Source: Isoetes taiwanensis
Lineage: Eukaryota; Streptophyta; Lycopodiopsida; Isoetales; Isoetaceae
Direction of reading: 5' to 3'
Assembly: GCA_021234155.1 (NCBI GenBank)
Contig: JAJEKV010000024.1
Location: 18,581,858 to 18,645,857 of the forward strand
Length of the DNA stretch: 64,000 nt
Positions 5,016 to 32,933 of the stretch are shown here, piece after piece (the first letter of the stretch is position 1; every line of letters begins with the position of its first letter). Made by a program: the position numbers and the translations under genes. The notes below the pieces were generated by a model. That model was not told the DNA's origin and searched no databases. It saw only the letters and a list, made by a program, of their open reading frames with translations.

Positions 5016-6440
5016 AATGCGCCGCTGAGATAAACCATACCCTCGCATGTTGGGTATTGGTTCTCATAGCGGGGATTAAATTGCAATATATATATATGTC
5101 GCCGCGGAATAAATGAAACACGGAAGCATGATATAATTATTGGCAAACCCAACCTTGTAAAATCTAAACAAAATAAAATTCTCAAGATAACCACATCTTT
5201 TGCATGCTGCAAGGTATTATTATCATAGTACAGTATTACGAAGAGAATCATCAGATATAATTTATAGTTCAAATGGATGCACAAAAACATTGAACATTCT
5301 ATGGTGGCAGATATAACTTTAATCTGTAAGCATGTCAACAAAAATCCTCTCTTTATTCAGCCAAATGCAAACCCAGCGTACCGCAAATACATTTTCTTTC
5401 GGTCACAAAAACATCGCGCTATAAACCGCCATTCAACAACGCTCGCGCCATGACCGTCACAAATTTTATCATTGCGAACGACGACTGCGGATTTTAACCC
5501 GGAAGCGTATTCGCGATAAAGCGATGAGAGCGTGAAGGGATTTCGCTGGATCATTGGTCTATTTTGCGGAAGATAAAGTTTATGGGAGCAGGAAATTATC
5601 ACCTAACTTGCTGGAATTAAACGAAGCGATGGAGCGATGAGTTTGAGCCGACCTGCGCGATGCCATTTTATCGCCGGAGAAGAGAGTTTTCGAGCGAGCG
5701 ATGCTGGAGCGATGCCGCATTTTGCATTTAATCTTTGCGCTTTTTCAGATTCTCCCCTCTATTTTTGTTCCTTCTTTATTCTTTTCGGACTCTTCTATTC
5801 TTTCTATTTTTTTTTCATCTATAAGATTTGCTGTTAAAAGATTTATCCTTCTTTTTTCAAAATTTTTCCTTTATGTTTTTATTATTTTTCTCAATTGATA
5901 ATTTTTTTGTTTTGTATTTACACTGAATAAAGGTTCTGCAACAACTTTGCACCTTCTTTCCAGGGTATAGATTTCTCTGACGTTTAATACTAATAAAATA
6001 CTATTGCTTATTTAGGTTAAATTGAAAGATTCCATATAAGACGCTGAAACCAACCTCCTCACATTGATTTTCATATTTTTCCTTGAAGAGCTTTATTTTG
6101 AGTAACATTATTTTTCTGAATCATTAATTGATGAGCCATAAAAGACTCCTGAAGGTACTGCTGTTTGTGCAAAACAAATCTTATTAATTTATACCTGTAT
6201 ACATTTCTGACTCCTTCTAATATTTTTAAATGGCTGATTAATGGATGGAGTTTAATTTATTTATTAATGATGAAGCAAAATTAGTTATTGTTTAGGAGTG
6301 GAGATGGTTACATTTGCCTAATGATTTAAATCTATATTTCTTTTTATTATTAAATTGGCCTTTATAGGTTTCAATATTAAATGGTTAATCCTCATTCATA
6401 ATAATGGATATTATTACTTTTTTCAATTTATAAAAAAACT
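5016..6440. other. AT-rich spacer without recognised genes
   Basis: From 5040 the sequence becomes AT-rich, with a short TATATATA run at 5089-5098 and long T-rich runs at 5740-5920. Frames at 4991-5341 and 5637-5898 are low-complexity and have no recognisable domain. Homology to the 3.35-kb repeat to the right fades in around 6.4 kb. Confidence 0.4.
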
Positions 6441-9400
6441 TTGAATTGCCTTTGACTTTTTTTATCTGAGCATACCTTTGTATAAATAATTTGATATTAT
6501 TAAGTAGGTTCCTGTTTAGGCTGTAATTAACCTTAGGGAATGACTATGTTAGCATTTTATTCAATATTATCAACTATGCTTCAAAAGAAATTAACATACC
6601 AATATCCAATACCGTGAGGATCCCAAACGCAAATTTTCCCTTAATAACCCAAAACCTACTCCAATAGTTTGCCAACACCAACCAACTTCACAACCAAATA
6701 AACCACCACCATACTTTGACATGGCACGAATTTGGAGTTTATTAGTTTCTCCAGGTTCTCAATACGACTCAGAATTTCATACCGGTTTTATCTGCAGCTT
6801 TTTCCCCACCTTTGCAATACGCAATGAGCGTTATTCCGCACGCATCAAATATTAAGCGCAAAAAGGCTAGAATGGTTGTTTTAGTATGGTGGCAGGTGCT
6901 TGTGGGATCTTTAACTCCGCCAACCCAGCAACCGAAACCGAGCGGAAACCATTGATAATCTTAAATGAAAACCAAGGCAAAAATACTGCATGAATGCTAA
7001 GGATCGAATGATCGTAATGTTTTATGAAACAGACCTGTTTCAAAGGATTGCCCGTGTGGATTCTACTCTGACATTTAATATGGTCTTGATGAGGATTCTG
7101 GTATTTTCATCATTGCAGAGAGCCTAGCATTGGCAAGATTGAATTTGCAAAATAATTTAATACGAACCAGCAGAAAAATCTCAAAGCGTTACAACAAGAT
7201 GCAATGACCGCCGGAATCCTGCCAAAGCTAACACTCCAGGCTCATTCCGCGAACCAGCCACACCATCATACCACCCTAAACCGAATGCCCGCATAAACCA
7301 CATGCAAATATCTATGAAGTTAAAATTAGCTAGGCGGCTCGAGGAGGTCACCAGCCCAGCGAGCAGCTTTTGGAACTAATGGAAGCCGTGGCGGAGTATT
7401 CATAATATTCATGAATCCAATGCTTTAAAAATAGTGGCACCTTTTGTTGGCGGAACCGTAATTAGCCGGTTCAGCAGGTAATGAGCCCGGATTTATAGCG
7501 CGAGTTTAATGAGAGAGAAAGGAGTTGAGTTGACCAGTTTCTTTTAATGTAATCTAGTGGACCCAATACCTCATTAGAGAGCTCCTTTGACAATCTACAT
7601 TTCATCACATTATCCTGTATTTGTAGATTCTCATACATAATAATGAGGCAAGAGACGCCCTTTATGGGCAAGACTCTGCACAGCCCTTGTGGTGGCGCCC
7701 CCTGATCTGCTGGCCTGCTCATCTTAAGATTATGTTTCTAATAAGGCCATACAAGATTTCTGTACACCTAGCACTCACTTCCACATATGCCTAAATGCAA
7801 GCTCTCACTGGTTAAATTATCGACCATCACCACAGATAAATTTAACCTGTTATTGTCGATCTATCGGCCTGGAAGCTTAATTTCAAAGACATACCCATTC
7901 CTTTGGATACATAATTATCATGCTATCTTGAAGGAAGAACTTGTTGCTTATTATATAAAACGCAGCCCACACTTAGTCGCAGACAGGATACTTTTGAAGA
8001 ATCAACGGGATTAGATCTAAATTATATGAAGAAAACTAGCATCTTAGCTTCTCTGGAGACTCCGGCGAATTTATAAGATGTTCCATATGAGCAATTGAAT
8101 CGATAAGGCAACAAACCTATTAAGACGCTTCGAGGCGGTCGGAATGCCGGAGTCGCCCATCATCGGAATTCGCCATATTCGGATCTCCCGGCATACACCG
8201 ATTATTGGCGCGCCACGGTTATTGATCTGGTTTGGCCTGAGGGAGCAGCAGGTGCTTCGCCTACGGCCAGCATTACTGACTATACGTAATTACACTGGCA
8301 ATATCCGGAATTACACCTTCCCATGCTTTCAAAGTCGTCCGGCAAACCTTTGGCCGCCTGGCGATGTCGTTTTCAGCCGGCTGGAATGCTGCGAAGCACA
8401 CCGCAGCTACTGCCCCATTCATGGCACTCCACATTGCAGCCGAGGGGAACCCCAAAACATATGCTATATCGGATAACGCCAACCCAATGCCAGCCATACT
8501 CCCACTGGAAGAAAACGGATAATGTGAGCTTCGTTAGGGCGAAGTGCGATGAAGTGGCTATTCGGTTTTGAAGGGTTTGGAGCGAAGGTGTCGAAGCATT
8601 AATGTACTTTAAAAATACGGATGGAGAAGCGCTACATGGAAGAGATACCGTCAAATGCCCATAATAATCTTATTTTAGGCTCTCGGCTTAAATGTATCTC
8701 GATTTTAAAGCACCGGCTTCAAGGCCTTCCCAACATCAAACCTGCGCAACGCCGGCCAGCACCTCTGGCGCTATTTCGGTGCACCATTAGCAAACAAAAC
8801 GCCGTACGATTCTCAAGAGTCCCAAATGGACCTGCTGGGCTTAAATTCATCAATAAAAAATCCCGCCACTCACCTTCTGGAGGGTTCGGGATAAACCCAG
8901 AACAACGAGAACCGCCTGATGTCCCACCCGGCTGGCCCATACCCAATCTTTATCCTGGCCACACAAACATTAAGGCGATAACCTGGTGCTCACCACCCCA
9001 TCCCACACCAGCATAGTCTGATTTACTGTCCCGCCCTCTAGAATTTTTCCAGCTCATTCAATAAATCCTCAAAAGTTTGGAAACCTAACTCTAACGCAAT
9101 GTTCATATACTGACCATAGCGTCTGTTTGCTATTTATGGTTCCAAATGGAGATCATTGCCTTTTCAAATCAATAGGCTTTTTCATAGTTTTAAGCAAATG
9201 CTTATTGTCGTATGAATCATGAAAACTTTCGCCTCAACCATTACTTTTAACCATCATAGGTTATTGATCTCCTTCTTCTCATCCATTTCTCTTTCCTATA
9301 TTATCCAAACAATATGTCAACTGTTAGCATGATAAAATTTGAATTTAATGCAAGCATAGTCGAGGTTATTGGTATAACCAATACCTTGAGTTAAAACAAA

Positions 9401-9962
9401 AACCTTTTAAATCTGTCTCCAGGAGACTTTTATCTCGTTATACCTTTGCAAGGTAGCGATACAATAAGCGGCCTAAGTTTAGTCGGGGTGTACTAACAGG
9501 CCAGGAACTATGTTGCTTTATTAGGCAGCATTTAACTATAAGCCAAGAAATTAAACATACCAATAGCTGTCGTACTTTCAAATTTAGCAAATCCAGTATA
9601 AATTTTCCTTGATAATGTTAGCCTATCAATAGTTTATAAATACCACCACTCACAATAGTAAAATGGCAGCTGTTAGCCCGTATTTACATCATGCCGATTA
9701 ATGAGGTCGGGTAGGTTTGGTGGCTTAGCAAAATTTGCCTCGTTATCGCGCACAATCTCTTCATATGTATCCGAGTGGTCTTTATCCACGACACCACTTT
9801 TTAGAGAATAGGTAACAATGAACAAAGATCACGATTGCACCAACATTACAAAAACAAGCATTAGAAATGGTTGCTTTGTACATGAGTAGCGGTGTCATGG
9901 GATCTTTTGGGGTCATCCCTTCACCTTTGCTATGTAAAGCAAATCAAAATGAGTAAGCCGAA

Positions 9963-10286
9963 TCAAAGAAATAAAACCATTAGAAATTGAAAACCGGACA
10001 TAATCTGGCCAGATGAAATAGGAGCGATACCGAATACCGTGATCAGCGGTACGTATTTCATGTGAACAACTGAATTGAAGCATCGTAAAATGGATCTCAT
10101 CTCATTTAATGTGGCTGATGAGGACTGCGGTATTTCATCTACTAGTACGATTATATCTAGCATTTCACGACATCGAACTTGAGAAATAATCTGGCTTATG
10201 ACTCTAGATGTTGAATCATAGCAGTAGAAAAAAAATTCTAAAGTAGCAATAACAACATGCATGACATAATAACGGACCTTTGGCAA
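9963..10286 (-). pseudogene. Exon-like segment 'CREMLDIIVLVDEIPQSSSA' of the 3.35-kb unit
   Basis: This is an uninterrupted 107-codon frame on the minus strand. It contains VRCREMLDIIVLVDEIPQSS and LNEMRSILRCFNSVVHM. Related copies recur at about 13480-13640, 16860-16990, 20490-20600, 27440-27560 and 30790-30900, some with shifted frames. In minus-strand order it follows a short conserved segment containing MGIRLGWYDHC (for example about 27671-27730). I do not recognise the family. It could be coding or simply an open stretch within an intron of the amplified gene. Confidence 0.3.
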
Positions 10287-11349
10287 TGCAAAAGCAATAC
10301 TCCTAGGCTATTTAGATCCTTATGAAACCTTGACTTAGCTACAATGATGCATACCACCTAAGCAGATACCCATAGTTAATGCGATTGCCATGGAGACACC
10401 CGTACCAAAATATCTAAGCAATAGCTTAAAAGCAGGTTGTCTTTAATGCGCCGATGCATCAGGTCTAGCTGACTTAATGATATGCTTTAAACTTAATGCA
10501 ATAAAATTTGTTTATATATAATATCCAAGAATCCAAATGCCTAAAAATAGAATGCTTTCTAAATACATATGGAGCTGTGGCACTTTTTCTGGTACATGTA
10601 TGCGGTAAGAGGAGAATTATTCCTAGATCTACATGTTTTCCTAAAGCTCAACTGTTATGCAACATAGCGGCATATACATAAGCTTATTTCACTACTTCAC
10701 GTAGTTTAGGTGATTACTTGCAATGTGTAATCTAGTGGAACAATACCTCATTTAGAGCTCCCTTTGCATTGACAATCTACATCCTTTGCCATTAACATCA
10801 TAGCTAGAAGACCGTTGCGTAACATGTAACACTAAAATGCAAAAGAGGCGTCTCTATAAGTAAGACTTCTAGAGAAGCGACCTTGTGGTGCATAAAATTC
10901 CACACGATGCTGATGCGGCTCATCTTAAGATTAATAGCCCCACAATAAGGCCAAGATTTCTGCAATGTTAGTTCTAGCACTTCGCTTCACATATTAGCAA
11001 GTGACGCCTCTAATGGTTAAATTATCGGACATATGCATTGCGAGATGTATCAGCTTAACCCATATTGTCATGATCTATCAGTCTGGCTAATTTCAAGACA
11101 CTGCAATATCTCTTTATACATAATTATCATGCTAAAGTGCACTATCTTAAGAACAACTTTGTTATTATTATAGCAAATGCAGGTCTACACTAGCTGCAAG
11201 ATGTATATACTTGAAGAATCACTCAGAGATTAGATCTAACTATATATATGAATACAATGAAAGGATTCATATCTTAGCTTCTCAGAAGACCACATAGAAT
11301 TATAAAATATTCATATTAAGCAACAACTCAAGCAAAAAGGCAATCAAAC

Positions 11350-11733
11350 CTTATTAAAAGGCGGCGGGGCTGCTCCGAAAATGTTTAAAGATTAGATCAC
11401 ATCATTGAATCAGCATGCAGATCTTTGGACTTCCCACATGCCACTGCATTGGCTTTGAGCAAAAGCCACAGACATGATCTGGTCGGTGGCCTTGAGGCAG
11501 AAGCTAGTGTTATGCTTCGCTCATTCTTGCCATTACTAGACTTATCCTCAGGGACATTGCAAACAGCTGCACCAATATCTGAATTACAATCTTCACCCAT
11601 GTTTCCAATGTCCTGGCAAACCTTAATAGCGAGGAATGAATGTTTACTTACATGGAATGTCAGGCAAGTGAAGCCTGCTTTGCAAAGCGGTTCCTATCTT
11701 ATGCATTCTAACAGCACAGAGCCAGAGGGGAAC
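11350..11733 (-). pseudogene. Exon-like segment 'VPLWL...SDSLKRLNK' of the 3.35-kb unit
   Basis: On the minus strand an acceptor-like TATATATTTAG precedes GTTCCCC. An open segment then runs to CTTAATAAG followed by a GT donor. The same segment lies at 14697-15073, 18325-18693, 21700-22084, 25300-25668, 28642-29011 and 32038-32421. In two copies it is exactly 369 bp, which is 123 codons in phase 0. Recurrent peptide motifs are LLWTFHVATSIPAIKVCQDI, GNMGEDCNSDIG, WLLLKANAVACGKSKDLHAD and SSNISDSLKRLNK. The frame is broken at different places in different copies, so part of the damage may be sequencing error. I do not recognise the family. The composition looks like a helical cytosolic or nuclear plant protein, but no function can be assigned. 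Confidence 0.5.
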
Positions 11734-11769
11734 CTAAATATATAAGCATTTGATACTACTGTCAGTCAC

Positions 11770-11910
11770 AATTAGGTGCAGACATAGCATTCCATTGGAA
11801 GAGTACCAAGACAACGTGTCTCCGTCGGTATAGGCCAGCCATGCCATCGTTCAAGCTCCAGGGCCATCTTGCCCTAAAGTGTCTAAGAGTTTCCAACAAG
11901 CTCGAATAAT
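11770..11910 (-). pseudogene. Exon-like segment 'RACWKLLDTLGQDGPG' of the 3.35-kb unit
   Basis: This segment lies directly upstream, in minus-strand order, of the 'VPLWL' segment. It reads RACWKLLDTLGQDGPG, then after a frame break AYTDGDTLSWYSSNG and MLCLHLIVTD. Related copies recur in every full unit, for example near 15120-15240, 18740-18870, 25700-25830 and 32440-32590. The alternative frames here (ending in NAMSAPNCD) are shorter in most copies, so the frame choice is tentative. I do not recognise the family. Confidence 0.3.
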
Positions 11911-12001
11911 TGTCAACTTTTAAAATAATACGCTTATTTGAGAATATTTCTCTACTAATGGACATGATACATACCGTTCAAATTTATTGGGGTAAACTTA
12001 C

Positions 12002-12200
12002 TCTAGGCCCTTGCCTAATGCATCCCCTTGATTTCAAAAGCATCCACTGCAATATCTTCCAGACAATATTCAAGTCCCATAGGCAAATCGCCATTACATC
12101 CCAAGTTATTTGAAATATGTGTACCATTACAACAAAATGCGTCAGGGTAATTATCTTCAAAATTTTAAATGGACTCATTAAATCCCTGACTAATAAAAAC
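12002..12200 (-). pseudogene. Exon-like segment 'LMSPF..LEDNYPDAFCCNG' of the 3.35-kb unit
   Basis: Read on the minus strand, an open segment carries LLVRDLMSPF, then LEDNYPDAFCCNGTHIS, NNLGCNGDLPMGLEYC and LEDIAVDAFEIKG. It ends at a textbook GTAAGT donor (11996-12001). One base appears to be missing in a run of G just before the donor. Copies at about 15350-15530, 18960-19180, 22340-22560, 25930-26150 and 29270-29480 keep the same landmarks. In those copies the LMSPF motif continues as GTLEDN, which removes the break seen here. This segment and the one at 11350-11733 are the best coding evidence in the unit. The function is unknown. Confidence 0.45.
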
Positions 12201-12364
12201 CACGCCACCTCTGGTAGGTCGAGGGGGACAAAGTGAGAACAAATTCATAGCAACAAAGTGGGACCTTGTTGCACCAAAATTACACTATATTGCTCATATT
12301 TTTGCCATGCATCTTTTATTCCTATTATTAATAACATTTGTATATGATGTGGAAATACCTCGTG

Positions 12365-12550
12365 CATAATCTTTGAGTATGGCTCCTTTGATGGCTGTCA
12401 AAGAGCTTCACCATTTTTCTCAATATATTCAGCCATCTCCTCAAAGTTTAAAGCGCAGCTCGTGAGAGCGATGAATACTCATATGAGGCATGACCATAAG
12501 GTCTAGCCATATTATATCGAATGGAATCGATAGCCTTTTCAATCAATATA
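12365..12550 (-). pseudogene. Exon-like segment 'AIDSIRYNMARPYGHASYEY' of the 3.35-kb unit
   Basis: The minus strand reads IEKAIDSIRYNMARPYGHAS, then YEYS. A few frame breaks later come NFEEMAEYIEKNGEAL and AIKGAILKDYAR, and then a GT donor (G|GTATTTC). The copies at about 15760-15910, 19350-19510, 22740-22900, 26340-26490 and 29680-29850 conserve the same words (EYIEKNGE, IKGAILRHYAR). Substitutions between copies often keep residue type, for example LKDYAR versus LRHYAR, as expected of former coding sequence. I do not recognise the protein family. Confidence 0.42.
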
Positions 12551-15500
12551 GGCTTTTCATAGTTTAAGCAAATGCTTATTGTCGCTCAATGTGAATGATG
12601 GCTTTTACGCCCCTCAACCATTGCACCCAACCATCATGGAGTTATTGATCTCCTTCTTCTCATCAATTTCTCTTTTCCTATGTTAGCCAAATGATAATAA
12701 TCCTTTATTAGCATGATAAAATTTACGCTGAATTTAATGCAACATAGTCAGGGTCCGTGGTATAACCAATACCTAGCGGTTAAAAAATAAAACCTTTTAA
12801 AACTGTCTCAGGACTTTATCTGCGTTATACCTTTGCAAAGGAAATAACGATGCAATAAGCAGCCTAAGTTTAATTGGTGTACTAACCTTAGGCCCAGTTA
12901 TGTTACTTTATTAGGCAGTAACTATAAGCCAAAAGAAATTAAACATACCAATATCAATGCTTTCGGTGTGATCAATGTAAAATTTTCCTTATTAATATTC
13001 AAAAGCCTATCAATAGTTTATACAAATACCACCACTCACAATCAAATAACCACTATTTAACCATATTTACATCACACGATTAATAGAATTGAGTAGTTCA
13101 TTGTAGCTCACTTAAATTGCCCTCCACGATATCTTTGCAATCTCTTCATGTATCCGTGAAATTGTATCCGGCTTCCACTTTTTTAGAGAATCGTAACAAT
13201 GAGCGAGATCATTTTGCACCAACATTACAAAAACAAGCATTAGAAATGGATTTTACGCTTTTGTACATGGTAGCAAGGTGTCATGGATCTTTTGGTCATC
13301 AACTTCACCTTGCTATGTAAACGTAATCAAAATAGTAAGCGAGAATCCAAAATAAAACCATTGAAAGTGAAAACCAGACATAATCTAATCTGGAGTAAAA
13401 ACCAAGAACAAATACCAAATACTCATATGATCGACTGCAATGTTCATGTGAAGCAACACGATTGACATCACATCCATGTGGATCTCTATCTCATTTAATA
13501 TGGCTGATGGGGACTAAGGTATTTCATCTACTAGTCACCGGTATCAATGGCATTTTCACGACATCGGCGAACTTCAAAAATAATAAAACCCACTGACTCT
13601 AGATGATATTGAATCATAGCGATGAAAAATTCTAAAGAGTAGCAATAACAACATGCATGACTGCTTTGGCCTTGTATGCAAGACTCATATACAAGGCTGG
13701 TAGCGTGAAGGCGCTGGAAGCTTCCGTACGTAGATAGCGGTGCATGATTGGTACGTGCCATGGAACACGCGTAGGAAAATATCTAAGCAATAGCTTAAAG
13801 CGAGTTGTCTTTGCAATACTTCTGATCTGTCGAGTCTAGCCCAGCTTAATATTATTAACGCTAAACTTAATGCAATAAGCTGTTTATACTTATAATATCC
13901 AAGAATCCAAATGCCTAAAAACAGGGTGGCTTTCCTAAGCCATATGGAACTGTGGCACTTTCTAACTTGCGTAATGCGTTAAAGAGGAAGAATTATTCTG
14001 AATCTACATGTTTTCTAAAGCTCCGGTATGCAACATAGCAGCATATACATAGGCTTATTTCACTACTTCCTGTAGTTTCTTGTTCTGCAATGTAATCTAG
14101 TGGATCAATACCTCATTTAGAGAGAACAAGCATTGACAATCACATCAACGCCATTAACATCCTTATCTAGAGGGCAGTTGCATGTAACATGGCAACAACA
14201 TAAAATATGCAAGAGGCGTCTCTATAAGTAAGACTTCACAAGCGACCCGCTTGTGGTGCATAAATTCTGATGCGCCCGATTACGGCTCATCTTAAGATTA
14301 TGCTTCTAAGGCCAGACTTTCTACGTGTTAGTTCTAGCTTCACTTCACATATGCTTAAATGCAAGCCCTTCTCTAATGGATTTAAGAATTATCAGACCTT
14401 ATCAGCTGCGGATGTATCGGCAACCCATATTATTAGCGATCTGCTCCGGTCACGAAATTTCTAATTTCAAGACTTTCTTTGCAATATCTCTTTATACATA
14501 ATTATCGTACTAAAGTGCACTATCTTAAGAACAGCACTGTGTTATTATTATAGCAAATCTGAGGTCTACACTAGGCGCAAGATGTATATACTTGAAGAAT
14601 CACTTTCGAGAGATTAGATCTAACTATATATATGAACCTGTGAAGGTTGCATGTCTTGAAAGCTTCTCAAGCAACTCAAGCAAAAGGCAATCAAACCTTG
14701 TTAAGGCGGCTTTGGGCTATCGAAGCTGCGCATGTTGTTTGGAATTAAGTCATCATTGAATCGGCGTAGGATCTTTGGACTTCCACGTGCAGTACGTGGC
14801 TTTGAGCAAAACCCGGACATGATCACGGTGACGCGAAGCTAGTGTTATGCTTAGCTCATTCTTGCCATTACTAGACTTATCTCGGGGGACGTTACAGCGG
14901 CTGCACCAATATCTGAATTACAATCTTCACCCGCTCTGGCACCGATGTCGGCGAAGCTGTATGCTTGGGAATAGATGTTGCCACATGGAATGTCGGGAAA
15001 CAAAGTGAAGCCTGCTTGCAAAGGCGGTTCTATCTTATGCATTCTAACGACCGCCGAGCCCGAGGAGGGGAACCTAAATAAGCATTTGATACTCTTGTCC
15101 GTTAATTAGGTGCGGACATAGCAGTTCCATTGGAAGAGTACCAAGATAGCGATGTCTAGTCGGTTATAGGCCAGCCATGCCATCGTTCAAGCTCGAGGGG
15201 GCCATCTTGCACCAGAAGTGTCTAGAGTTTCCAACAAGCTCGAATAATTGTCAGCTTTTAAAATAATAAACGTTGAGGAATATTTCTCTACTAATGGACA
15301 TGATACATCTGGATTTCAAATTTATTGGGGTAAAACTTACTCTAGGCCCTTGCCCTGGCCATCCCCTTAGTTTCAAAGCATCCATTTACCAATATCTTCG
15401 GTTATTTCAAAGTCCATGACGGTAGCCATTACATCCGGAATTACATTTTAGTATGCGTATTGCCATTACAACAAAATCGTGGAGATTGATTGTCTTCAAA

Positions 15501-16988
15501 GAGTCCCAAATGGACTCGTGTCGACTAAATAAAAGGCCGCCGCCACTACAGGTAGGTCGAGAGGGACAAAGGAAGTGAAATTTCAGGAGAATTCATAGCA
15601 ACAAAGGAGAGTAGGACCTTGTTGCCGCCAATTCCCTACCCCACCTATATTGCTCATATTTTTACCCATGCATCTTTTACATTCCTGTTATTAATAACGG
15701 TATGATAGCTGGAAATACCTCATTACGCATAATGCGAGGTATAATCGCTTTTGATGGTATCGAAACTTCACCATTTTTTCCTCAATATATTTCCAGTAAT
15801 CTCCTGAGTTTTAAAAGCTGCGAGCTGCATGAAATGAAGCGGTAGAATCACTCATATGAGGCATGACCAAGGTCTAGCCATATTATATCGAATGGAATCG
15901 ATGGCCCTTTTTCCGTGTAAGGCTTTTTCATGGTTTTAAGCAAATGTATTTGTCATGTGAATGATGACTTGCGCCCCTCAACCATTACTTTTCACTGCTT
16001 CCTTCATGGGTTATTGATCTCCTTCTTCTCATGTTCCTCTTTTTCCATATATTATCAAAACGTATAATGCTGTTAGCATGATAAAATTTCGCTGAATTTA
16101 ATGCAACATGGTCCGAGGTGTTGGTATGTAATGCCGAGTTAAAACAAAAACCTTTTAAAAGCTTTTGTCTCGGACTTTATCTGCGTTATACCTTTGCAAG
16201 GAAATAGCGATACAATAAGCAATACAAAGTTAGTCGGTGTACTAACCTTAGGCCAGGACTATCGGTACTTTTATTAAGGCATTAACTATAAGCCAAAAAG
16301 AAATTAGAAACATGCCAATATCCAATGCTTTCGATTAATGATCCAGTATAGAATTTTCCTTATTAATATTCCGAAAGCCTATCAATGGTTTATACAAATA
16401 CCACCAACTCACAATCCAAATAACCCTTTATTTATCACACCCGGTGTAAATTATGAGTAGTTCATTGTAGCTCCGCCAAAGTGCCCTCCACAGAATATCT
16501 TTACCAATCTCTTCGTATGTATCCGTGGTCTTTTATCCGACACCCACTTTTAGAGAATAAAGTAACAATGAGCAAAAGATCACATTACGCACCAACATTA
16601 CAAAAACAAGCATTTAAAGTATAGTTTGCTTTGTACATGGTAGCGGGTGTCATGAGATCTTTTAAAAGGTCATCAACTTCCTGCTTGCTATGTAAACAAT
16701 CAAAATAGTAAAGCGGAATCCAAAATAAAACCATTAGAAAGTGAAAACTACGGACATAATCTAATGGAGTAAATAGAGGTAAATGCCAAATACTCATATG
16801 ATCGTGGTACCAATGTTCATGTGGGAAACAACACGATTAAATATCTGTCCATGGATCTCTCTATCTCATTTAATATGGCATTGGGACTGCGAGTATTTCA
16901 ATACCACTGGTCGATATATCTAGCATTTTCTGACATCGAACTTCAAAATAATAAATAGCAGCTCTAGATATTGAATCATACTTGAGGA

Positions 16989-17235
16989 GTAAAAAGCATG
17001 AAAGGGGTGTCTATAAATGTATCCTTTTTAATTATGGCTATATTACACAAATCTTAAAGTACCCAAAAGTGCATGCATAGCCAAAAACATATCGAGAAAT
17101 TTAGCAAAATGTATATGCAAGTACATAAAAATCGAAAAGTGTATGGAACATACAAATAAAATAACCAAAATGTAGTGAAAAGTGTATATTTGTACATCAA
17201 TTGATTACAATGTCACGTACCTTTCATGCTTTACC
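16989..17235. mobile_element. MITE, copy 1 (in unit U3)
   Basis: This ~247-bp insertion interrupts the 3.35-kb unit between GAATCAT and GATGAAAAATTC. Its ends are inverted repeats, GTAAA(A)AGCATGAAAGG at the left and CCTTTCATGCTTTAC at the right. The interior is AT-rich and noncoding, with repeated AAAAGTG(T/C)AT motifs. Units without it are continuous across the site. The superfamily is not assigned because the target duplication is blurred. Confidence 0.75.
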
Positions 17236-20088: not shown

Positions 20089-20331
20089 TCAAGAAGTGCC
20101 CTCAATGATATTCTTTGCAATCTCTTCATATGTATCCGGTCTTTTTATCCAAATTTTCCCACTTTTTAGAGAAATACGCAACAATGAAAGCAAAAGATCC
20201 TCAAGTACTGCACTAACATTACAAAAAACAAGCATTAGAAATGGTTGTTGTACATTGTTGTGTGTCATGGGATTCGGGGTCATCCCCTTCACAATCGCTA
20301 TGTAAACAATCAAAATAGTAAACGAATCCAA
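20089..20331 (-). pseudogene. Exon-like segment 'KRPDTYEEIAKNIIEG' of the 3.35-kb unit
   Basis: This is an open frame of 80 codons on the minus strand with CNVSAVLEDLLLSLLRISLK and IKRPDTYEEIAKNIIEGTS. Counterparts lie near 9760-9860, 13100-13220, 16480-16600, 27060-27190 and 30430-30560. In the alternative frame the neighbouring sequence reads RALWRSYNELLNLWCDVNM, so which frame was originally coding is unresolved. No function is assigned. Confidence 0.3.
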
Positions 20332-23300
20332 AATAAAACCATATTAGAAAGTGAAACCGTGTATACCCAATGGAGTAAACCGTTAGGCAAATACCAAATA
20401 CTCATATGATCACCGACCGCGAATGTTCATGTGAAACAACCTCGCTCAAAGATTCGCCCATGTGGACTTATCTCATTTAATAGTGGTTCGATGAGGACTC
20501 GTATTTCCATCTACTAGTACAAAGATATCTAAAGTATTTGCCAAAGATCTAACTCAAATAATCTCGCTTAACAAATTTAGATATTGAATCATAGCAAAGA
20601 GAAAATTCTAAAGTAGTACAATAAATACGTACGACCTCGGGCCGGACCTTGTATGTAAAAAGCAATATACTCTAGGCTATTTCGCCCTTATGGTAAAACC
20701 TTCAAATTTTAGCTACAATGATCATAATACCCACCCTAAACTAATGTCTATAGTTAATGCTGCCATGGAAATCCCATTACGGAAAATATCTACAATAGCT
20801 TAAAATGTAGTTGTGTCATAATACTTCCCTCGACCGTCGTACTAGCCCAAATTTTAATATTATGTTTTAAACTTAATGCAATAAGTCAAGTTTATATACT
20901 TATAATATCCAAGAATCCAAATGCCTAAAAACAGGGCGCTTTCCTAAGCCATATGGAACTGTGGCACTTTTTCTAGCTGCATGTCTGTTAAGAGGAAAAA
21001 TTATTCTAGATCTACATGTTTTCTAAGCTCACTGTTATGCAACATAGCAGCATATACATAAGCTTATTTCACTAACCCAGAAGCTTGTTCAAGTAATGTA
21101 ATCTAGTGGATCAATACCTCATTTAGAGAGCTCCTTTGCATTGACAATCTACATCACTGCCATTAACATCCTTATCTAGAAGACCCGTTGCATGTAACAT
21201 GTAACACTTATAAAATATGCAAGAGACGTCTCTATAAGTAAGCACTCTAGAAACAAAATTGGTGGTGCATAAAAATTCCCCGACCGCCACCGCTCATCTT
21301 AAGATTATGCTTCTAATAAGGCCAAGATTTCTCTGTGTTAGTTCTAGCACTTCACTTCACATATGCTTAAATGCAAGCCTTCTCTAATGGTTAAATTATC
21401 GTGACGCACACTTGCATGTATCACCTTTAACCCATATTGTCATGATCTATCAAATCAAGCAATTTCAAGACACACGAATATCTCTCTTTCTTTATACATA
21501 ATTATTATCATGCTAAAGTGCACTCATCTTAAGAACAACTTTGTTATATTATAGCAAATGCAAAATTCACACTAGTCAAAGTAAAGATGTATATACTTGA
21601 AGAATCAATGAGATTAGATCTAACTATATATATGAATACAATGAAAGGGATTCATATCTTAGTTTCCTCAACAACCTTCAAGCAAAAAGGCAATCAAACC
21701 TATTAAGACGCTTTGAGGCTATCGTAATGTTGCCGAGTCGCCCATCATCAACAAGATGCGTATCTTTGACTTCCCACATGCCAATCAAGAGATTGGCTTC
21801 GAAAGCAAAAAGCCACTGCATGATCCGGCTCTGCGCCTGGAGGCGTAAGCCAGTGTTATGCTTCCGCTTCATTCTGCCATTACTAGACTTATCCCCTCGT
21901 GACATTGCAAATGTACCGCACCAATATCTCACTACAATCTTCACCCATGTTTCCAATGTCCTGGCAAACCTTAATAGCCGGAATAGATGTTGCCACATGG
22001 AATGTCCAGAGCAAGTGAAGCACACTGCAAGATTTCGCTTCTATCTTGCGCATTCTAACAAGACATTGCAGCCGTGAGGGGAACCTAAATATATAAGCAT
22101 TTGATACTACCACAAATTCCAATTAGGTGCGTACATAGCATTCCATCGAAGAAGAGTACTAAGACAACGGTCTCCGCTTCTGGTGATAGCCCATGCCATC
22201 GTTTCAAGCTCCGTGGCCATCTTGCCCTAAAGTGTCTAAGAGTTTCCAACAAGCCACACCAATAACTTTTTAAAAATAATACGCTTATTGGAGAATATTA
22301 TTTCTCTTACCACGGACATGATACATACCGCTCAAATTTATTGGGGTAACTTACTTCCAGGCCCCTGCCTAATGCATCCCCTTGATTTCAAAAGCATCCA
22401 CCTAATATCTTCCGCATAAATATTCAAGTCCCATGAAAATCGCCATTACATCCCAAGTTATTTGAACATGTGTACCATTACAACAAATGCGCCAGTGGTA
22501 ATTATTCTCAAGAATCCTAAATGGACTCATTAAACTGACTAATAAAAACTCCTCACACTCCAATGAGGCTTCCGTGGGGACCAAAGTGAGAACAAATTAT
22601 AGTAACAGCAGAGTAGGACCTTTGCTGCACCAAGGTCTCTACCCCACCTATATATTGCTCATATTTTACCCATGCATCTTTATTCTGGCTATACAAACAT
22701 TGTATATGATAACCGAAATGCCTCACCCGCATAATGCCGAAAAGTAGCCCTTTGATGGCTGCCAAACTCACCATTTTTCTCAATATATTCAATAATTCCT
22801 TAAAGTTTAAAACCGCGATACCAAGAAGGTAACGCGCGAATACCATATGAGGTACACCATAAGGTCTAGCCATATTATATCCGAATGGAATCAATAGCCT
22901 TTTCAATCATAGCTTTTTCTATAGCGTTTTAAGCAAATGCTTGCCGGTCATGTGAATGATGTAGCTTTTCTCGCCTCAACCATTAACCATCAGGTTATTG
23001 ATCTCCTTCTTCTCATCCATTCTTTCCTATATTATCAAACAATATGTCATCATAGCGCTTGATAAATTTCGCCTCAATTACTGCAATATAGTCCAAAGTT
23101 ATTGGTATGTCCAATACATCGAAAGTTAAAACAAAAAAACTCTTTTAAATCGTTCCTTGACTTTTATCTCGTTATACCTTGTAAGGAAATAACTTGATAT
23201 TAATAAGTGTACTCTAAGTTTAGTCGTACTAACCTTAGGCCCGCACTATGTTACTTTATTCTACATTAACTATAAGCCAAAAAGAAAATAAACATACCAA

Positions 23301-23955
23301 TATCCAATGCTCTCACGTATCCAAATGCAAATTTTCCTTATTAATATTCCAAAACCTATCAATAGTTTATACAACACGCCACCACTACAACCAAATAACC
23401 ACTATTTAACCATATTTACATCACACCAAAGGTAAATTGAGTAGTTCATCAGGAAGTTCAGCAAGTGCCTCACCATACCTGCAAATCTCTTTGTATATGT
23501 ATCCTGGTCTTATCCACAAATTTTCCAATTTTTAGAAATACGTATCAATGAGCAAGTGATCCCTAAGCATTCCAATTCAACATTACAAAAAACAAGCATT
23601 AGAAATGGGTTGTTATACAGCAGTGTCATGGGATCTTTTGGGGTCAGTCCTCTTCGCTAATCAAGTAAACAATCAAAATAGGTAATCTGAAAATAAAACC
23701 ATTAGAAAAGTAAAACTGCATATAATCTAGCCTGAAGTAAAACTACCAAATACTCATATGATCACCGACTCCTAATGTTCATGTGAAACAACCTCGTTTC
23801 CAAAGATCTCATGGGATTCTGCCCTATTTAATATGGGTATTCCTCGATGAGGACTCTCCGTATTTTCATCTACTGGCCAAAGATATCTAGCATTTTACAA
23901 AGATCAACTTCAAAATAATCTCAAGCTAATGTTTCTAGATATTGAATCAGCAGCA

Positions 23956-24212
23956 GGTAAAGCATGAAAAGGTGTCTATAAATTGTATCCCTTTTGGTAC
24001 AGCATATATTACACAAATCACCAAAGTACCCAAAAAGTACATGCATAGCCAAACATATCCTAAATTTAGCTTAAATGTTATGCAAAGTGCATAAAATCTA
24101 AAAGTGTATGTTTATACAAATGTACACAACCAAAAATGTACTTGAAAAGTATCCATATTTGTATTATCACAATTCCAAGACAATGTACGCATAATCTCTT
24201 TCATGCTTTACC
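23956..24212. mobile_element. MITE, copy 2 (in unit U5)
   Basis: This is the same element as at 16989-17235, about 257 bp, with left end GGTAAAGCATGAAAAGG and right end CTTTCATGCTTTACCC. It sits at the equivalent position of another tandem unit, just before GTGAGAAAAAATTC. The shared site means it was copied with the unit rather than inserted twice. Confidence 0.75.
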
Positions 24213-27200
24213 CAAATAGTGAGAAAAAATTCTAAAGTAGCAATAACAACATGCATGACCTGCTGGACCTTGTATGCAAAAGCAATATACTCTAGGCTAT
24301 TTCGTCCTTATGAAACCTTCAGCTTAGCTACAATGATCATACCACCCTAAACGAATGCCCATAGTTAATGCTGCCATGGAACTCCCCAAAGACATGCAAA
24401 ATATCTTTAAGCAATAGCTTAAAAACAGAAGTTGCCGCAATATTTCCTCGATTCACGGCCTAGCCCGTACCTTAATATTATGCTTTAAACTCTACGCAAT
24501 GCTGTTTATACTTATAATATCCAAGAATCCAAATGCCTAGTGTACCATTTCAAGCCATGGAACTGCGGGTAATTTCTTTTTCAGCCTTGTGTCCGTATAT
24601 GAGGAAAAATTATTCTAGATTCATATGTTTCTAAGCTTCATCATATGCAACATAAAGAAGATATACATAAGCTATTTCACTACTTCCCTGTAGTTTCTGT
24701 TCCAATGTAATCTAGTGGATCAATACCTCTTAGCTTTAGAGAGCCCTTTGCATTGACAATCTTACATCACCGCCATTAACATCCTTATCTAGAAGACCCT
24801 GCATGGCACATGTAACACTTATAAAATATGCAAGAGACGCTCTATAAGTAAGACTTCTAGAGAAAAATTTTGTGGTGCATATAAAATTCCTCTTTGATCC
24901 GCCACCGCTCATCTTTAAGATTATGCTTCTAATATGCCGTAAGATTTCGTGTTAAGTTCTAGTGACTCTTACTTCACATATGCTTAAATGCAAGCCTTCT
25001 AATGGTTAAATTATCGACCTTTTATCACCGCAGATGTATCACTCTTAACCTATATTGTCATGATCTATCAAATCAAGCAATTTCAAGACACCTAATATTC
25101 TTTATACATAAATTATCATGCTAAAGTGTACTATCTTTTAAGAACAACTTTGTTATATTATAGCAAATGCGTGTCATGCACTAGTCAAGATGTATATACT
25201 TCACAAAACTACCGTAGATTAGATTCAACTATATATGAATACAATGAAAGGATTCATATCTTTAGCTTCTCAACAACTCAAGCAAAAAGGCAATCAAACC
25301 TTATTAAGACGCCAGGCTATCGAATGTTGCCGGAGTCGCCCATCATCAATCAAGATGCGATCTTGGATCTCCACATGCCAACGTGATTGGCTTTGAGTAA
25401 AAAGCCACGCATATGATCTGGTCGGTGGCCTTGGAGGCGTGTTTTCAGTGTTATGCTTCGCTTCATTCTTGCCATTACTAGACTCATTCCCATACGCAAA
25501 CAAACCGCACTCAATATCTGAATTACAATCTTCACCCATGTTTCCAATGTCCTGGCAAACCTTAATAGCCGGAATAGATGTTGCCACATGGAATGTCCAG
25601 AGCAAGTGAAGCACACTGCAAGACGGTTCTATCTTATGCATTCTAACAGCACAGAGCCAGAGGGGAACCTAAATATATAAGCATTTGATACTACTGTCAG
25701 TCACAATTAGGTGCAGACATAGCATTCCATTGGAAGAGTACCAAGACAACGTGTCTCCGTCGGTATAGGCCAGCCATGCCATCGTTCAAGCTCCAGGGCC
25801 ATCTTGCCCTAAAGTGTCTAAGAGTTTCCAACAAGCTCGAATAATTGTCAACTTTTAAAAATAATACGCTTATTTGAGAATATTTCTCTACTAATGGACA
25901 TGATACATACCGTTCAAATTTATTGGGGTAAACTTACTCTAGGCCCTTGCCTAATGCATCCCCTTGATTTCAAAAGCATCCACTGCAATATCTTCCAGAC
26001 AATATTCAAGTCCCATAGGCAAATCGCCATTACATCCCAAGTTATTTGAAATATGTGTACCTAGTCAAGCAACAAAAATGCTGCCGCCGTAGTAATTATC
26101 TCAAGAGAGTCCCAAAATGACTCATTAAATCACTATCAAAAACCGCCACCTAACGTAGGTCGTGGGGACCAAAGTGAGAACAGAAATTATGTAGTAACAA
26201 GTGAGAGTAGGACTTGTTGCACCAAGGCCCTACCCCACCTATATTGCCTATATTTTCACCCATGCATCTTTTATTCTATTATTAAATAACATTGTATATG
26301 ATAACCGAAATAATTCCTCATTCGGTATAATGCCGAGTATAGCTCCTTGATGGCCGCCAAACTTCACCATTTTTCTCAATATATTCAATAATCTCTCAAA
26401 GTTTAAAACCGCAGTCACAAGAATCGTAACGTGAATATTTCATATGAGGTACGAATTCATAAGGTCTAGCCATATTATATCCTATCGGAATCGATAGCCT
26501 TTCAATCAATAGGCTTTCATAGTTTTAAGCAAATGCTTATTGTCATCTCAATCATGGCTTTTCTCTCTACCAACCATTACTTCTAACCATCATAGGTTGA
26601 TCTCCTTCTTTCTCATCCATATATCTCTTTTCCTATATTATCAAAACAATATGTCAACAAGTATACGATAAAATTCTCACCAATTTAATGCAACATAGTT
26701 CAGGGTTATTGGTATAACCAATAATAATCGAGTTAAAAAACAAAAAACCTTTTAAATTCGCTCTCAGACTTTTATCTCAAGTTATACCTTGCAAGGAAAT
26801 AACTTTGATACAATAAGCGTTCTGGTATTTTACCAGTACCAACCTTTTAGGCTCCATCTATGTTACTTTATCTCGACATTAACTATAAGCCAAAAAAGAA
26901 ATTAAACATACCAATATCCAATGCTCAAGGTAATCCAATGTAAATTTTCCTTATTAATATTCCAAAACCTATCAATAGTTTAAATACCACCACTACAATC
27001 CAAATAACCACTATTTAACCATATATTTACATCACACCGTAAATTGAGTAGTTCATTGTAGCTCCGCTAGTGCTGCCCTACCTATATCTTTTGCAATCTC
27101 TTTCCATATGTATCCGTATCTTTATCCAAATTCAATTTTAGAGAATACGCACAATGAGCAAAAGATCCCTGCTATCTCGCACTAACATTACAAAAAAACA

Positions 27201-30200
27201 AGCATTAGAAATGGTTGTTTTGTATACGGTAGCAGTGTCATGGGATCTTTGGGGTCATCCCTTCATTAATCAAGTATGTAAACAATCAAAATAGTAAATG
27301 TAATCCAAAATAAAACCATTAGAGTGAAAACCGTATATAATCTAATGGAGTAAACTACAAGTAAATTAAATACTCATAAGGATCACCGACCGCACTGTTC
27401 ATGTGAAACAACCCTTCAAGATCTCATTCATAAAATTCTATCTCATTTAATATGGCCTGATGAGGACTCTGGTATTTCATCTACTAGTACAGTATATCTA
27501 GCATTTTACAGCATCGAACTTCAAAATAATCTGGCTTAACAGCTCTAGATATTGAATCATGCTAAAGAGAAAAAAATTCTAAAAGTAGTACAATAACAGG
27601 CCACCGTCATTGACTCAGATGCAAAAGCAATATACTCTAGGCTATTTCGTCCTTATGAAACCTTCAGCTTAGCTACAATGATCATACCACCCTAAACGAA
27701 TGCCCATAGTTAATGCCAGTGCCATGGAACCTGCACATGCAAAATATCTAAGCAATAGCTTAAAACAGAGTTGTGCTGCAATACTTCCCTGATCTGTCAG
27801 TCTAGCCCAGCTTAATATTATGCTTTAAACTTAATGCAATAAGCTGTTTATACTTATAATATCCAAGAATCCAAATGCCTAAAAACAGGGCGGCTTTCCT
27901 AAGCCATATGGAACTGTGGCACTTTTTCTAGCTGCATGTCTGTTAAGAGGAAAAATTATTCTAGATCTACATGTTTTCTAAGTCATCATGCAACATAGCA
28001 AAGATATACATAAGCTTATTTCACTACTTCCCGAAGCTCTTCGCTCCGCACATCTAGTGGGATCAATACCTCATTTAGAGAGCTCCTTTGCATTGACAAT
28101 CTACATCACTGCCATTAACATCCTTATCTAGAAGACCCGTTGCATGTAACATGTAACACTTATAAAATATGCAAGAGACGTCTCTATAAGTAAGACTTCT
28201 AGAGAAACAGCCTTGTGGTGCATAAAATTCCCTGATCTGCCAGTCTGGCTCATCTTAAGATTATGCTTCTAATAAGGCCAAGATTTCTCTGTGTTAGTTC
28301 TAGCACTTCACTTCACATATGCTTAAATGCAAGCCTTCTCTAATGGTTAAATTATCAGACCTTATCAGCTGCAGATGTATCAGCTTAACCCATATTGTCA
28401 TGATCTATCAGTCTGGCTAATTTCAAGACACTGCAATATCTCTTTATACATAATTATCATGCTAAAGTGCACTATCTTAAGAACAACTTTGTTATTATTA
28501 TAGCAAATGCAGGTCTACACTAGCTGCAAGATGTATATACTTGAAGAATCACTCAGAGATTAGATCTAACTATATATATGAATACAATGAAAGGATTCAT
28601 ATCTTAGCTTCTCAACAACTCAAGCAAAAAGGCAATCAAACCTTATTAAGACGCTTGAGGCTATCAGAAATGTTGCTCGAGTCGCCCATCATCAACGCCA
28701 TGCGCATCTTTGGACTTCCCACATGCCACTGCATTGGCTTTGAGCAAAAGCCACGCATATGATCCGGCTCTAAGGGTCTTGAGGCGTGGTTGCGTTATGT
28801 CAGCTTCATTCCTTGCCATTACTAGACTTATCCTCGCACACGCAAACACCGCACCAATATCTGAATTACAATCTTCACCCATGTTTCCAATGTCCTGGCA
28901 AACCTTAATAGCCGGAATAGATGTTGCCACATGGAATGTCCAGAGCAAGTGAAGCACACTGCAAGACGGTTCTATCTTATGCATTCTAACAGCACAGAGC
29001 CAGAGGGGAACCTAAATATATAAGCATTTGATACTACCTGTCATTCCAATTAGGTGCGCATAAAGATTCCATCGAAGAATTTCAAGACAACGTGTCTCCC
29101 GGCTTCTGCATAGCCAGCCATGCCATCGCTCAAGCCTCCAGCCATCTTGCCCTAAATAAGAGCTTCCAACAAGCCTACAATTGTCAACTTTAAAAATACG
29201 CTTTATTTGAGAATATTTCTCTACTAATGACATGATACATACCGCTCAAATTTATCAAGTAAACTTACTCTAGGCTCCTGCCTAACGCATCCCCTTGATT
29301 TCAAAAAAGCATCCACCCAATATCTTCCGCATAATATTCAAGTCCTTATATAAATCGTGCCATTACATCCTGCTATTTGGAAATATGTGTACCATTACAA
29401 ACAAAATGCGCCAGGTAATTCTAAGCAGAGTGCACCCCTTTCAAGAGTCCCAAATGGACTCATTAAATCCGGACTAATAAAAACCCCGCCACCCTACCGT
29501 GAGGTCGTAGACCAAAGTGAGAACAAATTCATAGCAACAGTGAGAGAAAATCTCTTGTTGCACCAAGGCCCTACTCCCACCTATATTAAGCCTATATTTT
29601 TACTCATGCATCTTTTATTCCTATTATTAATGTAACATTGTATATGATAACTGAATTACCCTCATTCTCGCAGATAATGCCGAAAGTATAGTCTCTTTGA
29701 TGGTCAGCCAAAACTTCACCATTTTTTCTCAATATATTCAATAATCTCCTCAAAGTTTAAAACCGCACCAAGCAAGCAATCCTAACGTGAATATACTATA
29801 TATGAGGCATGACCATAAGGTCTAAAGCCATATTATATCCTAATGGAATCATAGCCTTTTCAATCAATAGGGTTTTCTATGTTTTAAGCAAATGCTTATT
29901 GTCATGTGAATCATGGCTTTTCTCGCCTCAACCATTACTTTTAACCATCATATAGGTTATTGATCTCCTTCTTCTCATCCATTCTTCTTTTCCTATATTA
30001 TCAAACAATATGTCACCAAGTAAGATGATAAAATTTCGCCCTAATTTAATGTAACATAGTCCAAAGTTATTGGTATAACCAATACACCGAAGTTAAAAAC
30101 AAAACTTTTAAATTGCTTCCGTGACTTTTTATCTCATATACCTTGCAAGGAAATAACTTGATATAATAAGCAAATGCAAGTTTAAATGTGTACTAACCTT

Positions 30201-32878
30201 AGGCCTGCATCGATTTTACTTATTCGACATTAACTATGCCAAAAAAGAAATTAAACATACCAATATCCAATGTCAAGTAGATCCAATGTAAATTTCCTTA
30301 TTAATATTCCAAAACCTATCAATAGTTTATACAAATACCTCACCACTCACAATCCAAATAACCATCACTATTTAACCATATTTATATCACACCAAAGGTA
30401 AATTGGAGTAGTTCATTGTATTTCTGTAAGTGCCCTCACGATATCTTTTTTGCAATCTCTTCATATGTATCCGCGGGTCTTTATCCAAATTTCCACTTTG
30501 TAGAATACGAATAACGAGCAAAAAGATCCCATACCCTCGCACTCAACATTACAAAACAATGGTAGCAAAATATGGGATCTTTTGGGTCATCCCCTTCACA
30601 CCGCTATGTAAACAACCCAAAATAGTAAAATGTAATCCAAAAATAAAACCATTAGAGTGAAAACTGCATATAATCTAATGGAGTAAACCAAGGCAAATAC
30701 CAAATAACACTTCCATGATCATCACCTAATGTTCATGTGAAACAACCTGTTGAGATCTCTGCCCATGTGGATCTCTATCTCATTTAATAATATGGCCTCA
30801 TGAGGACTCGTATTTCATCTACTAATACAAGATATCTAGCATTTTACAAGATCAACTTCAAAATATCCGCTTAACAGCTCTAGATATTGAATCATAGCAA
30901 GAGAAAAATTCTAAAGTAGCAATAACAACATGCATGACCTCACTGACCTCAGGTGATGCAAAAGCAATATATACTTCAGGGCTATTTCTCGTCTCTTATG
31001 AAATCCACTTAGCTACAATGATCATACCACCCTAAACTTAATGCCCATAGTTAATGCTGCCATGGAACCCAAGACATGCAAAAATATATAAGCAACAGCT
31101 TAAAACAGTAGTTGTGCCGCACACTGACTGGCCGGGCCTAGCCCAAATTAATATTATGTTTTTAAACTTAATGCAATAAGTCAAGTTTATACCTTATAAT
31201 ATCCAAGAATCCAAATGCCTAAAAAATTGTGGCTCTTTCCTGCTTCATATGGAACTCCATGGCACTTTTTCTAGCTGCATGTCTGTTAAGAGGAAAAATT
31301 ATTCTAGATCTACATGTTTTCTAAGCTCACTGTTATGCAACATAGCAGCATATACATAAGCTTATTTCACTACTTCCTGTAGTTTCTTGTTCTGCAATGT
31401 AATCTAGTGGAACAATACCTCATTTAGAGAGCTCCTTTGCATTGACAATCTACATCACTGCCATTAACATCCTTATCTAGAAGACCCGCTGTATGTAAAT
31501 ATTACGTAACACTTTCTATAAAATATGCAAGAGACGCCTCTATAAGTAAGACTTCTGTGAGAAATGTACTCTTTGTGGTGCATAAATTCCCCGACTGCCA
31601 AATTGCTCATCTTAAGATTATGCTTCTAATAAGGCCAAGATTTCTCTGTGTTAGTTCTAGCACTTCACTTCACATATGCTTAAATGTAAAGCTTCTCTGA
31701 ACGGTTAAATTTATCGCATCTTTTATCACCGCATGTATCGCCTAACCCATATTGTCATGATCTATCAGTCTGGATAATTTCAAGACACTGCAATATCTCT
31801 TTATATATAATTATCATGCTAAAGTGCACTATCTTAGTTAAGAACAACTTTGTTATTATATAGCAAATGCGTCTACTAATTAGTCGCAAGATGTATATAA
31901 TTTTGAAGAATCACCGAGATTAGATCTAAATCTATATATATGAATACAACCAAGATCTATATTCCTAGCTTCTAAGACTACATAGAATTATATAAAATAT
32001 TCATATAAGGCAACAACTCGGGCAAAAGCAATCAAACCTTTATTAAGACGCTGAGGCTATCGTAAATGCTTGGCTGGAGTCAGCCCATCATTGAATCAAG
32101 ATGCGATCTTTTGACTTCCTACATGCCAATGCATTGCTTTGGTTAAAGCCACGCATATGATGATTCCGCCCTGGGCCTTGAGGCGTAAGCTAGTGTTATG
32201 CTCGGCCTCCTGCCATTTAGCTAGACTTATCCTCGTGGACATTCCGCAAAATACCGCACTAATATCTCAATTACAATCTTCACCCATGTTTCCCAATGTC
32301 CCGCAAACCCTACAGTTTTAACAGATGCTGCCATGAAATGTCCGTGAGCAAGTGAAACATCAGAAGATCTGCCTTCTAATTCCTTATGTATCTCTAACAA
32401 AGACGCAGAGCTGCAGGGAACCTAAATATATAAGTTATTTGATACTACCGTACCTACCAGTACATAAAGATTCCATTGAGTACCAAGACAACGCGGTCTC
32501 CGCTTGCAGATAGGCCAGCCATGCCATCGCTCTCAAGCTCCGTGGCCATCTTGCCCTAAAGTGTCTAAGAGTTTCCATCAAGCCTAATAATCACAATCCA
32601 AAAACATTATTTGAGAATATTTCTTACTAATGGACATGATACATACCGCTCAAATTTACAGTAAACTTACTTAGGCTCCTTGCTACGTATCCCCTTATTT
32701 CAAAAGCATCCACCGCAATATCTTCCACAATATTCAAGTCCCATAGCAAATCGCCATTACATCCTGCAAGTTATCTGGAAATATGTGTACCATTACAACA
32801 AATGCGCCGTGGTAATTCTAAGTGTGAGTGCACCCTCAAATCTTCAAGAGTCCCAAATGGACTCATTAAATCCCACTC

Positions 32879-32933
32879 AAAAAAATAAAAAAAAAAAAAA
32901 AAAATAAAAAAGCACTTTTTTTTATCATTGCAA
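32879..32933. repeat. A-rich run ending the tandem array
   Basis: The last tandem unit is cut off at CTCATTAAATCCCACTC and runs into about 40 bases of almost pure A with rare T, then a T-run. This could be the scar of a retroposed poly(A) insertion or an assembly junction. Confidence 0.6.

Follow-up and report, generated by a model that had tools for sequence, protein, structure and literature searches.

Structure of the array

The window analysed here, a stretch of 64,000 nucleotides from contig JAJEKV010000024.1 of the Isoetes taiwanensis assembly, contains a head-to-tail array that extends from about 6425/6438 to 32880, as delimited by self-alignment together with start and end motifs, and that closes in an A-tract reaching 32911 (32879-32911 on the plus strand; a T-tract in the sense of the reverse transcriptase, RT, described below). 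Self-alignments of the window under an E limit of 1e-20 are between 258 bp and 10.8 kb long at 75-84% identity, beyond chance, and confirm the tandem arrangement claimed in a preliminary description of this DNA. With the unit at 27619-30950 as reference, six nearly full copies (the unit itself included) and several partial ones are recovered at 71-82% identity over stretches longer than 280 bp. The eight copies originally counted correspond to eight module starts, at 6438, 9403, 12793, 16151, 19765, 23142, 26748 and 30105, the first copy being partial and degraded. Copies are 71-84% alike and are mostly spaced at 3.36-3.6 kb, with seven start-to-start steps of 2965, 3390, 3358, 3614, 3377, 3606 and 3357 bp; the 3.35-kb unit first proposed holds as a tandem period, and its length is not fixed but varies from 2965 to 3614 bp. 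The array is invisible to TRF at periods up to 500 bp, and the view that it differs from ordinary short satellites is upheld.

Each period consists of a module B of 2.7-3.0 kb followed by a module S of about 600 bp, both assigned to the minus strand, which is the RT-sense strand. Where both ends could be located (five window modules), B measures 2730-3013 bp; for S the length is 599-627 bp in the four copies whose two ends are clear. Module B1, partial and degraded, occupies 6438-9402 with the remains of S1; its end was looked for and not found, and similarity resumes at 9141 on the S side. B2, bounded by start and end motifs and read below as a long terminal direct repeat, lies at 9403-12193, and S2, the corresponding putative internal-region remnant, at 12194-12792. 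They are followed by B3 (12793-15537, its end approximate, as 12 of 29 positions mismatch the tail core) and S3 (15538-16150), B4 (16151-19163) and S4 (19164-19764), B5 (19765-22542) and S5 (22543-23141), B6 (23142-26138, end again approximate) and S6 (26139-26747), B7 (26748-29477) and S7 (29478-30104), and finally B8 (30105-32880), the last of the array; B4, B5, B7 and B8 are placed by their module start and end positions.

Coding remnants in the repeat unit

The minus strand of module S reads ..GYNMARPYGHASYEYS..AAAVLNIEELIEYIEKNG.., with variable intactness, and joins two pieces: the start of an open reading frame, ORF1 (an acceptor-like border and the first codons), and the C-terminus of an RT with its 3' hairpin region. 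The border, TTTGATAATATAG followed directly by GAAAAG.., is kept in the family and lies within module S, where ORF1 starts. A composite S query has minus-strand matches, with E values from 1.2e-22 to 8.3e-5, in six of the seven copies of S in the window. The RT remnants so located lie at 12256-12516 in S2 (E 6.5e-7), 15674-15871 in S3 (E 8.3e-5), 19222-19470 in S4 (E 1.9e-15), 22637-22885 in S5 (E 4.3e-6), 26192-26482 in S6 (E 1.2e-22) and 29551-29823 in S7 (E 8.4e-17); four of the six contain stops, those in S4 and S5 being free of them. The same query, which reads through in a single frame at L009 and L010 and is frameshifted in other loci, also finds S modules outside the window and numerous open frames about 690 amino acids long. 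A profile of four RTs run in six frames left the window below detection at E<0.1 and reached that level in only 8 of 32 other loci, with a best value of 1.2e-11 at L013. The noise of the window sequence may account for the miss there, and at the level of sequence comparison it is through the composite S query that the window is linked to the RTs.

Module B presents a different picture. No protein match was seen in it by Pfam in read-through frames: the three minus frames of the window unit, the six frames of a related unit and the six frames of the terminal repeat of an intact element (see below) all gave none. At the four loci read, each of the six frames of its conserved head is interrupted by stops, and no conserved frame of the kind expected of a host gene runs across the unit. 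The open segment of exactly 123 codons reported for two copies is found once in the array by a strict scan of the minus strand (TTAG, 369 open bases, GT), at 25300-25668, and it sits in B6, outside module S.

The earlier observation is consequently real and partly confirmed, and its interpretation partly supported. A protein-coding origin on the minus strand is substantiated by the RT/ORF1 remnant of module S, and at least one splice-like border exists, the acceptor-like one at the ORF1 start. The proposal of a tandem multi-exon gene of unknown family does not survive, as the coding remnant is of retroelement origin and covers only some 600 bp of each period. Translation and profile search of the unit had been suggested as a check, with a lack of protein homology counting against coding origin; the read-through minus frames of the window unit give no Pfam match, and module S does carry RT C-terminal homology.

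An intact relative and its reverse transcriptase family

What the modules once were is best appreciated from a relative at C952:7438500-7462500 (L037-L039). Here direct repeats of about 2.4 kb (2379 aligned bases, 99.0% identical) enclose, in minus sense, ORF1 (534 aa), an RT (690 aa) and the 3' hairpin region. Its sequence suggests that this intact element sits inside an older one. The B heads of the older element match the window family, and its RT is broken over two frames; the ORF1 proteins of the older and inner elements are 54% identical over 435 columns. The nest holds further repeats. Module S of the window family matches the older element on the ORF1-acceptor side (90% over 136 bp) and the inner element beside the 3' hairpins (88% over 58 bp), and given these matches module S is best read as an internal deletion derivative and module B as the terminal direct repeat. 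Pfam holds no match for ORF1. In the three minus read-through frames of the C952 internal region Pfam recovered RVT_1, which served as the positive control of the method, and found no integrase, RNase H, protease, Gag or endonuclease. A weak UBA_3 match in the same region fell below its cut-off.

The open frames of about 690 amino acids carry GIPMG and Y(I/M)DD motifs. RVT_1 matches nine of nine RTs (best E 2.5e-5, all below the Pfam gathering score), and the models for group II RTs and for CRISPR-associated RTs likewise match all nine, whereas profile searches of PDB gave no convincing chain and only a chance match at E 1.4. Proteins of the RT family have no Pfam match to an endonuclease or integrase, and a GIY-YIG domain was found neither by Pfam nor by pattern in 10 RT and 2 ORF1 proteins. 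The family is large, with at least 150 scored matches among 2,771 first-look candidates, all at E<=1e-73. Among ten proteins, the four pairs with dS<1.5 have dN/dS values of 0.088, 0.071, 0.071 and 0.075, and these codon comparisons indicate that the RT family is under purifying selection.

Where the RT frame opens, TAG is followed by G at 11 of 13 loci, several of which are close relatives; L044 and L046 differ. A stop-to-stop frame is by definition preceded by a stop, whereas nothing of the kind imposes the TAG-G context, so it is this context and the preceding sequence alone that speak for a splice acceptor. Any splicing at these borders is putative, as read from the sequence itself. The 3' regions of RT and S share a stem of 18 predicted pairs, two of them changed on both sides; given a slightly unfavourable covariation term of +0.48, the predicted fold is suggestive only. 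No hammerhead ribozyme matched Rfam at gathering within the window, and Rfam returned only weak unrelated hits, far below gathering, for window positions 27000-33000 and for L038, L015, L016 and L018. Telomeric repeat tails were not seen in the family loci, whose tails are A/T runs, and a tRNA scan, a plasmid search and a PHROGs search found nothing relevant.

The family across the genome

The window array belongs to a dispersed family. In the genome (1,658,258,908 bases in 1110 contigs), where 91 NAC-domain matches are the mark of a land plant, a 2.9-kb stretch of the unit has 65 matches, 40 out of 164 first-look candidates being scored, and a second unit query has 55 (40 of 202 scored). Family ends recur at the same unit positions across loci: a 39-bp start motif is present at 38 places with at most three mismatches, 15 of them exact, against none for its reversed control, and the end motif at 26 places against none for its control. 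With the A-tracts outside, copy ends read A-tract followed by CC.. at the start and ..CTAA followed by A-tract at the finish, in the overall layout A-tract - B - A-tract - S - A-tract - B - A-tract. An A-run at the outer start, scored as six or more A within four bases of it, is present at 14 of 17 loci, of which L023 and L024 have a common flank and so do not count as independent cases; at the outer start of the window array the run is only 6-7 A long. The three loci scored without one are L022, L025 and L026, though the start of L022 and one of two in L025 are A-rich. Eleven of 13 loci have an A-run at the outer end, the exceptions being L017 and L026. At the outer end of L028 the A-run continues into a CA repeat.

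Some loci are a single B (among those fetched, L015, L016, L017 and L018 were treated as such), and others are B-S-B or longer rows; in the three rows seen at both ends (the window, C36 and L003) a B stands at both start and finish. L017 contains a 1.06-kb internal duplication, and C1007 bears another row, with a period of about 9.37 kb. Within module B, conservation is good over the first 640 bp or so; a mosaic middle and a short tail follow. Module S is nearly alike in nine of 11 aligned modules (L014, one of the nine, has an insertion), and L011 and L013 differ in the left half. Twenty of 27 fetched family loci lie more than 1 Mb from both contig ends, the remaining seven being on short contigs or nearer a contig end.

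The tendency to lie in one orientation is pronounced. When 94 query matches down to E 0.0091 (the weaker ones of 150 omitted) were merged into 84 copies, 38 neighbouring pairs within 12 kb were on the same strand and none on opposite strands. Twelve of the 38 belong to the window's own row, leaving 26 against 0 outside it, where 29 of 78 merged copies have a same-strand neighbour within 12 kb.

Probable origin and growth of the array

The array most probably arose when a defective, non-autonomous retroelement was amplified in tandem where it stood. In this scheme a B-S-B copy, mobilised in trans by the RT of full relatives, would have landed in an A-rich site; its direct repeats of about 2.8 kb might then have paired unequally at meiosis or replication, unequal exchange would have grown the row to eight B and seven S, and the reverse exchange would leave solo B copies. 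The template may have been unspliced or antisense RNA, given that genomic copies retain the acceptor-like border together with its upstream sequence and that the A-tracts sit at the plus-strand end of B. A plus-strand retroposed non-coding RNA with poly(A) was considered as the whole story and rejected; it fitted the A-tracts, but the opposite-strand RT remnant explains the unit better. A target-site duplication was found at one of eight loci (15 bp at L017), and searches for empty sites returned flanking repeats only and no clean pre-insertion allele; insertion by retrotransposition is consequently a step that we infer.

Alternatively, the row could have been copied as a ready-made multimer, multi-unit read-through RNA being reverse transcribed as proposed for tandem Penelope-like elements. 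This is unlikely, though it would suit rows that start and finish at fixed points with A-tracts, and PMC11167929 describes a Penelope-like locus transcribed as multi-copy RNA. In a tree of the B heads, however, the heads group by locus in seven of seven multi-unit loci (support 0.85-1.00; 0.992 for the window heads), which favours growth or homogenisation in place.

That the row or its length is an artefact of assembly is highly improbable, although the quality of the sequence deserves attention. The likely source assembly, according to PMC8566536, combined nanopore reads, miniasm, racon and pilon with long-read gap closing, and small indels per substitution are alike in the array (0.38-0.54) and in three window repeat pairs unrelated to it (0.43-0.56), as might be expected if assembly error contributed. 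Between loci the ratio is 0.00-0.20 in six of seven comparisons. It is 0.79 in the remaining comparison (5' flank, L023 against L024) and 0.29-0.70 for pairs within other rows, so the indel ratio alone is no proof of error. In the tree, private branches of the window heads are 0.14-0.31 substitutions per site against 0.00-0.05 in the other six rows, and much of the divergence between window units is probably residual nanopore assembly error. Consequently, exact frames in the window are not to be trusted, and private differences between units, many of which may be errors, are no proof against an artefact. Both the divergence and the copy number given for the window rest on a noisy assembly; against an artefact stands the presence of comparable tandem rows at other loci of the genome.

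A non-autonomous LTR retrotransposon of Copia or Gypsy type (TRIM/LARD), amplified by LTR-LTR exchange, is very unlikely. As in such elements, two long direct repeats enclose an internal region, single repeats occur and rows are explicable by repeat-repeat exchange, and TRIM/LARD elements are similarly deletion derivatives with short internal remnants. In contrast, the intact relative yields no integrase, RNase H, protease or Gag in the same Pfam run that recovered RVT_1, the family shows only a weak RVT_1 match among Pfam RT models, and the repeats end in A/T tracts rather than in TG..CA with a short duplication of fixed length. A tandem host multi-exon gene family, or an amplified gene fragment, deserves hardly any credence: the minus-strand coding remnant and acceptor-like border in S would suit it, but the protein remnant is the end of an RT, copies of single-B and B-S-B type, with A-tracts at their borders, are scattered through the genome, and the read-through frames of both the window unit and the related unit lack a Pfam match.

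Relation to known elements

Sequence features suggest, at lesser strength, that the family may belong to the endonuclease-lacking Penelope-like elements. The RT motif pattern (GxxMG before SP, NIP, FLN..YDK) is one that we take to be Penelope-like. Intact ORFs of about 690 amino acids encode an RT, as in these elements; likewise, copies stand in head-to-tail rows that leave repeats flanking an ORF (B flanks S at the loci read, in the manner of pseudo-LTRs), introns may be kept and flanks are A/T-rich, and, as in the endonuclease-lacking members, the RT is without RNase H or integrase matches. For Penelope-like elements PMC11167929 describes head-to-tail copies and pseudo-LTRs, and PMC3846280 intron retention with a proposed antisense template. 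There are also differences. Terminal repeats are 2.4-4 kb here against 218 bp in a rotifer example (PMC3846280), ORF1 is separate and lacks a Pfam match, A/T tracts occur at nearly every junction seen, GIY-YIG was absent from the proteins scanned and a hammerhead ribozyme from the window and scanned loci, and the telomeric location of endonuclease-lacking elements contrasts with the 20 of 27 loci lying deep inside contigs. Land-plant Penelope-like elements without endonuclease are given only for Selaginella and conifers in the review PMC9033089. Among the papers listed in a literature search, the word Penelope is absent from the two Isoetes genome papers, and PMC2864245 and PMC8038606 contain both Isoetes and Penelope.

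Two further comparisons are instructive. Unlike cellular RVT genes, the family is dispersed, repeat-flanked and multi-copy. With plant satellite DNA it shares head-to-tail rows, but it is kilobase-scale and modular, carries protein remnants and is dispersed in short rows.

Implications

What appeared as a puzzling "gene satellite" becomes an explained object, and the same genome proves to hold a big family of intact, selected RT genes of unusual architecture. It is conceivable, if rather doubtful, that they represent a large, recently active order of plant retroelements that is neither LTR, LINE nor canonical Penelope, in which two genes, an ORF1 of no known family and a divergent RT reached by splicing, would be present, multi-kilobase terminal direct repeats would be combined with structured 3' hairpins and junction A/T tracts, and copying from unspliced or antisense RNA would go together with a ready growth of satellite-like rows. 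How Penelope-like elements integrate is poorly understood, according to PMC9033089. With repeats that are 99% identical and introns that are apparently kept, a young copy in the Isoetes genome makes the question of an unspliced or antisense template testable by strand-specific RNA.

Other repeats in the window

Outside the array, the window carries a pair of 2.3-kb direct repeats (52452-54749 and 55170-57466) that are 81% identical in a BLAST self-comparison and separated by a gap of 420 bp, with long polypyrimidine tracts flanking the outer sides of the pair (51.6-52.4 kb and 57.5-58.1 kb). The A-tract and hairpin of the array family were absent at the inspected edges of these two repeats. 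Exact tandem doublets with units of 28 bp and 24 bp lie at 33960-34015 and 36584-36633, respectively, and an open segment of 101 aa at 60506-60808 bears what we take to be a resemblance to the Copia integrase core.

Relatives of the array elsewhere in the genome

The locus L017 holds a copy with a single B module (L017:1459-5356), which contains an internal tandem duplication of 1056 bp at 98.4% identity and has a target-site duplication of 15 bp, the sole clear case seen, separated from the element by short filler and A26. Within the S module, two further family loci, L011 and L014, have in common several hundred bases that, by eye in the alignment, are missing from the other nine aligned S modules; these two loci perhaps retain an internal region with less deletion.

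Further rows are also present, as located by genome match coordinates. At C1007:5530822-5559159, a related stretch occurs four times at spacings of 9365, 9375, and 9370 bp, and this is another row, with a unit longer than that of the window array. Six matches to the C-terminal end of the reverse transcriptase, at steps of 1771, 3313, 3314, 2198, and 3325 bp, lie at C1064:3029627-3043548, which is a further row with a recurrent step of 3.31 kb.
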